From positions 1 through 25,516 of IMG/VR virus record IMGVR_UViG_3300005590_000069: DNA of 25,516 nt, one strand, 5' to 3'. Each line of letters starts with the position of its first letter. Within the stretch, counting starts at the first letter, position 1. The notes beneath the pieces are model-generated. The model saw only the letters and a list, made by a program, of their open reading frames with translations, searched no databases and had not been told where the DNA came from. The stretch comes from a virus. Shown here piece after piece: positions 6,972-7,433 of the stretch. A program made the translations under genes and the position numbers.

Positions 6972-7155
6972 ATCTCATAGAACCCTTGAAGGGTGAGCCG
7001 CCTAGGTCACCAGTTATTCCCCGGCTGGGGTGACTCCGCGGTACGCTTTTGCGTTTCGACCGTAGTCTCATCAGCCAACCCCCGAAGGGGTGCCGGGCCA
7101 GATGCTTCCTTGTCAGCGGCTCTGGGAAGCCCACGGTTCAAGGGTTCTATGAGAT
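6972..7155. repeat. 184-base structured element with perfect 19-bp terminal inverted repeats
   Basis: ATCTCATAGAACCCTTGAA at 6972-6990 is the exact reverse complement of 7137-7155. Inside, on the minus strand, further complementary pairs are visible: GAGCCGC (7123-7117) with GCGGCTC (7001-6995), GCTTCC with GGAAGC, CCAGA with TCTGG, CCCGGC with GCCGGG, and GTCACC with GGTGAC. Some of these cross and so imply a pseudoknot or alternative folds. The element lies between the tRNA and a small gene and codes for nothing convincing. It is read here as a folded RNA; a small mobile element with terminal inverted repeats is the alternative. No clear target-site duplication is visible. Confidence 0.75.
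7020..7097 (-). ncRNA. hammerhead ribozyme, type I topology (open at stem I)
   Basis: On the minus strand the conserved core is complete. CUGAUGA (7074-7068) is followed by stem II, GAC-UACG-GUC (7067-7058), with a stable UNCG-class loop. Then GAA (7057-7055), then stem III, A-CGC / GCG-U, with loop AAAA (7054-7043), then A17 (7042), giving a GUA cleavage triplet and predicted scission between 7042 and 7041. Stem I is UGG/CCG (7077-7075 with 7041-7039), a 7-base bulge, then GGGGU/ACCCC (7082-7078 with 7031-7027) and CCCGGC/GCCGGG (7097-7092 with 7025-7020). The first ACCCC (7091-7087) can compete for the same G-run, so a switch is possible. Activity is inferred, not shown. Confidence 0.75.
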
Positions 7156-7213: not shown

Positions 7214-7265
7214 CATAAAATATCAAAATTATCTATTTGGACAATTGATATTTTGGCGTTCTAAA

Positions 7266-7338
7266 TCAGGGGCACAGGATTCGAACCTGTTTCCTTGGGA
7301 TCACAACCCAAAGATTTATCCACATAAGCTAGCCCCTA
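7266..7338 (-). tRNA. tRNA with GUG (His) anticodon
   Basis: A 73-nt cloverleaf on the minus strand. Acceptor stem TAGGGGC / GCCCCTG (first pair U-G), D arm GCTT/AATC with one mismatch, anticodon stem TTGGG/CCCAA around loop TTGTGAT (anticodon GTG), a 4-base variable loop, and a perfect T arm ACAGG-TTCGAAT-CCTGT. No CCA is encoded. The base before position 1 is T and position 73 is A, so the usual His identity pair G-1:C73 is absent; alphaproteobacterial tRNA-His is the known exception of this kind. It probably supplements His decoding during infection. Confidence 0.9.
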
Positions 7339-7433
7339 AATGCGTCTGGCGGGGTTGCCTGACCAAGCCACGCTACCTCATCGCATGGACACCCAGCCAA
7401 GTACCACCCAGAATCGGTGTCTATTCTCAGACG

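Follow-up and report, generated by a model that had tools for sequence, protein, structure and literature searches.

What kind of RNA is encoded where a hammerhead ribozyme lies inside a perfect inverted repeat, with crossing helices in between? The locus sits on the minus strand of the window, the whole 25,516-nucleotide stretch of DNA analysed here (positions 1 to 25,516 of IMG/VR virus record IMGVR_UViG_3300005590_000069). Comparison with its relatives indicates that the minus-strand RNA 7155-6972 is a member of a family of phage-encoded structured RNAs that is absent from Rfam 15. The family consists of ~90-nt pseudoknotted RNAs, apparently undescribed, that occur in many unrelated bacterial viruses and often among tRNA genes.

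The window RNA and its relatives

The two 19-nt arms at 6972-6990 and 7137-7155 form an exact inverted repeat with the ends originally assigned to it, and the chance of such a repeat is ~6e-8 within 184 nt and 3e-5 for the whole window (arms within 300 nt). The minus-strand RNA folds with z = -5.8 relative to shuffled sequences, none of 200 shuffles being equally stable. The complementary segments that had been listed inside the repeat are likewise present in the minus-strand RNA, namely GCTTCC/GGAAGC (7130-7125 / 7109-7104), the crossing GAGCCGC/GCGGCTC (7122-7116 / 7001-6995), GTCACC/GGTGAC and CCCGGC/GCCGGG. The 184-base unit of the original prediction is a real element, but it was misdrawn: what is conserved is a core spanning 7135-6995, and the 19-bp ends are accessory. 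The parts are as follows.

7265-7339, minus: tRNA-His, immediately upstream on the same strand
7137-7155, minus: 5' strand of P1, the outer closing helix (19 bp, exact), optional in the family (P1 score, below)
6995-7135, minus: conserved core including the hammerhead insert (65-member alignment and R1 match)
7131-7135, minus: CGUGG motif, whose fourth nucleotide pairs with the C of GAAUAACU (no exception in 117)
7125-7130, minus: P2 5' strand, GCUUCC (pairing and covariation)
7116-7122, minus: PKa 5' strand, GAGCCGC, within the P2 loop (covariation)
7104-7109, minus: P2 3' strand, GGAAGC (pairing and covariation)
7098-7103, minus: AUCUGG, conserved joining motif (family conservation)
7092-7097, minus: PKb 5' strand, CCCGGC (pairing and covariation)
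7078-7091, minus: linker hairpin ACCCC-UUCG-GGGGU, not conserved in relatives (comparison of relatives' linkers)
7038-7078, minus: hammerhead insert with stem I (core, NUH and covarying stems in 45 relatives)
7033-7040, minus: CGCGGAGU, core motif conserved with or without the hammerhead, its first bases lying in the stem I 3' strand
7029-7034, minus: P3 5' strand, GUCACC (pairing and covariation)
7020-7025, minus: PKb 3' strand, GCCGGG, within the P3 loop (pairing and covariation)
7012-7019, minus: GAAUAACU, conserved loop motif (family conservation)
7006-7011, minus: P3 3' strand, GGUGAC (pairing and covariation)
6995-7001, minus: PKa 3' strand, GCGGCUC (covariation)
6972-6990, minus: P1 3' strand (exact inverted repeat)

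In the window the RNA lies beyond a tail-fibre-like gene, after the tRNA-His and upstream of an 87-codon gene of no assigned function, and it is single-copy in the 25.5-kb phage record. The R1 match to the window covers 6988-7135 (E 5e-11). Sensitive BLAST matched only the inner part, and not the outer arms, in Arthrobacter phages Karkharias and Constance, Mycobacterium phage Gaia and Enterobacter phage SDFMU_EhYP. A scan of IMG/VR with the conserved loop GCYGGGGAATAACTNNNNACC returned 100 stretches, mostly clear members, versus 20 stretches in 84,980 bacterial and archaeal species genomes, only 3 of which are genuine by context (L110, L113 and L122), pointing to a phage-specific RNA. Pattern CGAAACGCNNNNGCGTACCGCGGAGTC, which was too specific, and pattern CATCTGGCCCRGCNNNNNCGYGGAGT, which fixes a linker length not found in the family, gave no matches. 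Extra scans with other motifs, together with BLAST matches, raised the total to 117 distinct non-permuted members, among which the search patterns themselves account for part of the conservation of the search motifs (GGGGAATAACT and CGYGGAGT). Circularly permuted members, at least a dozen, add to these, in phages and prophages of many bacteria. The named hosts include Arthrobacter, Mycobacterium smegmatis, M. abscessus, Microcystis, Pectobacterium, Enterobacter and E. coli. Hypothetical proteins are annotated over or beside the RNA in Constance (L005 2461-2571), Gaia (L007 2548-2841) and Pappous (L131 3035-3151), and at least some of these are likely false genes.

A pseudoknotted core supported by covariation

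As judged from paired substitutions, the conserved core is composed of helices P2 and P3, pseudoknots PKa and PKb, and one tertiary G:C/U:A pair. A 27-pair model applied to 34 ungapped sequences finds 99.0% of cells paired, a percentage that is partly built in for P2, P3 and PKb, since the parser of the larger set from which these sequences were drawn required those helices to pair; the count of compensating changes (both partners vary in 22 of the 27 pairs), PKa and the isolated pair are free of this constraint. The covariation score of the 34 sequences is 0.625, as against 0.166 in shuffles (0 of 500 as high) and 0.05-0.12 in slid registers. In agreement with this, P2, P3 and PKb are almost fully paired, with compensating changes, in the first set of 65 members, which had been placed by motif spacing and not by pairing, and for which pairing in P2, P3 or PKa was no criterion of choice. 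The longest PKa pairing in those 65 averages 8.2 bp in native sequences versus 4.6 bp when loops and tails are swapped between sequences. The tertiary pair joins the fourth base of CGUGG to the seventh of GAAUAACU; it is G:C in 100 and U:A in 17 of the 117 members, with no exceptions, and played no part in member selection. A model-fitted alignment, A3, placed the hammerhead insert in the wrong loop and was excluded from the pair counts.

The crossing pairs had been taken to imply either a pseudoknot or two exclusive folds. The pseudoknot stands, and exclusive folds are ruled out, because the two crossing helices, P2 and PKa, both covary and are kept together. A further proposal, that two ACCCC copies compete for one GGGGGU and make stem I switchable, does not survive comparison. 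The two copies (7091-7087 and 7031-7027) and the single GGGGGT are where they were said to be, but the linker hairpin that contains the first (7091-7078) is peculiar to this phage, relatives having short, mostly unpaired linkers at that site, and the second overlaps the covarying helix P3.

The core is also rich in conserved unpaired bases that are near-invariant, which suggests that the RNA engages something conserved across bacteria. Separately, one locus carries a tandem pair of diverged RNA copies (L087 2876-2559, minus strand), with the tertiary pair G:C in one and U:A in the other and a strong terminator after them.

An optional hammerhead at a single site

The hammerhead seen earlier on the minus strand of the window is borne out by its relatives, which keep its core and three stems. 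In the window it comprises CUGAUGA (7074-7068), stem II (7067-7058, GAC-UACG-GUC), GAAA (7057-7054), stem III (7054-7043, ACGC-AAAA-GCGU) and a GUA triplet ending at 7042, closed by stem I (UUGG 7078-7075 / CCGC 7041-7038). This stem I is weak, with two G-C pairs, one wobble and one mismatch (3 of 4 pairs). Across 45 aligned hammerheads all three stems covary, A15.1-U16.1 is invariant (45/45), and CUGANGA is found in 44, counting two script-misregistered rows (both CUGACGA) as read by eye. The cleavage triplet conforms to NUH throughout, position 17 being C in 34, A in 10, U in 1 and never G. Stem I is ~4 bp in the family, and its 3' strand is borrowed from the core motif CGYGGAGU, which is conserved with or without the hammerhead.

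Comparison of the 117 members places the hammerhead at one site only, between PKb and CGYGGAGU; 89 members have it and 28 lack it, most of the latter having 2-6 nt there. On a poorly resolved 85-column tree its presence changes at least 14 times, 4 of these changes being forced by supported branches. No significant link was found between hammerhead presence and tRNA proximity (Fisher p = 0.28).

Rfam hammerhead models report nothing at E<=1 in the window; in two relatives they score 28.7 and 26.6 bits, below the gathering score of 34, which is a detection threshold and not a mechanistic feature. Stem II opens with A.A in 20 of the 45 hammerheads, and the screen of Perreault 2011 (PMC3088659) discarded mismatches at the start of stem II, so the family may have been overlooked for this reason. 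The PaP3 hammerhead named in that study was considered as a member and set aside, as R1 matches in PaP3 are at chance level only. Two variants are recorded here: the Gaia hammerhead (L007 2409-2559) reads UUGAUAA in place of CUGANGA, so that the active-site pair C3-G8 is apparently U3-A8, a natural double change, and a subgroup (L016, L023 and L048) has an extra G+C-rich hairpin between PKb and the hammerhead.

The outer helix and the surroundings of members

The window P1 scores 22, equal highest of 65 relatives, where the 99th percentile of mispaired arms is 11. A P1 scoring at least 12 is found in 42 of the 117 members, and in non-permuted members the arm sequences differ from phage to phage. 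P1 is therefore best read as a helix kept by structure and not as a conserved terminal repeat. The prospect that relatives might keep the ribozyme and lose the terminal repeat or the internal pairs proved half right: relatives that have the ribozyme and lack the repeat are common, which makes the repeat accessory, and the internal pairs are the conserved core.

Comparison of member neighbourhoods also reveals a linkage to tRNA genes. tRNAs lie within 60 nt of 24 members, always on the same strand (34/34), and in several cases they abut the core, at a distance of -1 to 5 nt, on one side or on both. Terminator-like hairpins stand directly downstream at 13 of 113 loci, as against 1.15 in mononucleotide shuffles; upstream there are 4. 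No constant protein partner was found across the neighbourhoods, where only common packaging genes recur; downstream neighbours include terminase, portal and HNH genes. One phage tRNA array that holds the RNA also holds a tmRNA gene (L025 663-967).

Circular permutation and lambdoid prophages

In SDFMU_EhYP and in E. coli prophages the parts occur in permuted order, with the hammerhead first, followed by CGYGGAGU-P3, P1 closed by a loop, P2 and PKb. Further permuted relatives in other phages have the identical order, so that the order around the loop is kept, and the five permuted rows in the tree form one group. Whatever the architecture, wherever a hammerhead is present its predicted cut has the same position relative to the core.

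In lambdoid prophages the permuted module lies within the arms acaacaggtaagagcattg ... cagtgctctttccgttgt, a late-leader position directly ahead of the lysis genes. Between Q and S, lambda itself has these arms around a different 37-nt interior. The core-hammerhead version is present in 15 of 5426 complete E. coli genomes, and 193 match at least 80% of the lambda version. The lambda structure is a late-leader stem-loop right after tR' (J02459 44788-44863; L128 989-1064), its arms being common to several lambdoid interiors. A second copy of the lambda-type stem-loop, with yet another interior, occurs at L021 8231-8163, and the stem tip looks like an exchangeable module.

Relation to known RNAs

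Searches with Rfam 15 (4227 families) gave no match to the core, whether in the window or at twelve other loci; the window yielded the neighbouring tRNA-His alone, and elsewhere only tRNA, hammerhead and stray sub-threshold matches were reported. No earlier description of the core was found in the literature searched, which left subscription journals and most preprints outside, so one may exist. What appears to be new is the core RNA class; neither the hammerhead nor the notion that phages have RNAs near their tRNA genes is.

The insert resembles type I hammerheads (RF00163) in its CUGANGA, GAAA and NUH triplet and in three stems that covary in the family, but here a 4-bp stem I joins the ribozyme to a larger conserved RNA that also exists alone. 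GOLLD and ROOL are likewise phage-encoded, structurally complex, often near tRNA islands and of no assigned function; however, they are far larger, many GOLLD RNAs exceeding 800 nt (PMC12286853), and the family core has no covariance-model match. HDV-like theta ribozymes (PMC10879173) are self-cleaving RNAs beside phage tRNAs too, yet they have another catalytic fold and cut at the tRNA 3' end, whereas here the predicted cut is inside the RNA. Two-piece circularly permuted tmRNA (PMC10085705) likewise has its gene order permuted and functions as two RNA pieces, but the family RNA has no tRNA-like or coding domain and its break would come from an internal ribozyme. T4 rnaC and rnaD are also small stable RNAs within a phage tRNA cluster; on inspection they do not contain the conserved family motifs and were rejected as members.

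The core is a class of conserved, pseudoknotted RNA shared by phages whose hosts differ widely, and its optional hammerhead is a module gained or lost repeatedly at one site. The continuous, nicked and permuted natural forms offer a direct comparison by which the purpose of small phage ribozymes can be tested.

A proposed role and its alternatives

We lean towards a stand-alone phage structured RNA, with a functional and probably trans-acting core, that is nicked or trimmed by its own hammerhead, an explanation we judge to be just on the probable side. The RNA would be co-transcribed with neighbouring tRNAs or late genes, and its boundaries would be set by abutting tRNAs or by the outer closing helix P1 (19 bp in the window). 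The core (P2, P3, PKa, PKb and the tertiary pair) would be the conserved, probably functional part, with a type I hammerhead, joined through stem I, occupying the loop between PKb and CGYGGAGU. The hammerhead is predicted to cut between A7042 and C7041, so that the upstream piece would end in a 2',3'-cyclic phosphate and a 5'-OH would be left directly ahead of CGCGGAGU. The two pieces would stay associated through P1, PKa and PKb as a nicked RNA, and in permuted forms the same break would become the mature 5' end. The clamping of the two halves by the outer helix, as first suggested, would be in keeping with this anatomy. The RNA may then act in trans on a widely conserved host component. A stand-alone RNA is argued for by the same-strand and abutting tRNAs, the downstream terminators and the lack of any shared protein neighbour beyond packaging genes. 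The nick would not be needed universally, because about a quarter of members have no hammerhead.

A rather unlikely alternative, on the whole, is that the locus is a cis element for processing or stability, the hammerhead cleaving a long phage transcript from within a tight fold; the fold would insulate neighbouring genes, and both ends would be protected, the upstream RNA by its cyclic phosphate and the downstream RNA by its 5'-OH. Members are intergenic and often lie upstream of HNH or terminase genes, and operon processing was proposed for prophage hammerheads by Perreault 2011 (PMC3088659). However, the same core is kept in members without a hammerhead, the downstream gene is inconsistent, some members stand directly before a terminator or between abutting tRNAs, and a long outer helix would rejoin the halves. 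For the lambdoid copies, with their late-leader position ahead of the lysis genes, a cis role is equally possible.

It seems improbable that the RNA is a natural aptazyme, in which the core would recognise a ligand or protein and, by vying with stem I for the CGY strand, make nicking depend on binding. The double use of CGYGGAGU, conserved with and without the hammerhead and serving as a stem I strand, would suit such a device, as would a stem I of only 4 bp and the many conserved unpaired bases of the core; however, neither a ligand nor a regulated gene is apparent, and the hammerhead at the 5' end of permuted forms looks like simple trimming. We also give little credence to an RNA that acts on the transcribing polymerase (put/EAR-like antitermination) or in DNA packaging (a pRNA-like motor part). 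That part of the family lies in the late leader or near terminase genes, and a use in long untranslated tRNA arrays, would fit, but members also occur amid tRNA arrays and, as in the window, downstream of tail genes, and Rfam pRNA is unmatched.

The other reading offered at first, a small mobile element that carries the ribozyme between terminal inverted repeats, is very improbable despite the perfect 19-bp ends and a permuted cassette with the same arms in unrelated phages, as the RNA is single-copy in this genome, no target duplication was seen when permuted copies were compared at the lambdoid locus, the arms of non-permuted members are unrelated in sequence between phages and often absent, and the different interior within the same arms in lambda is a module swap and not an empty site.
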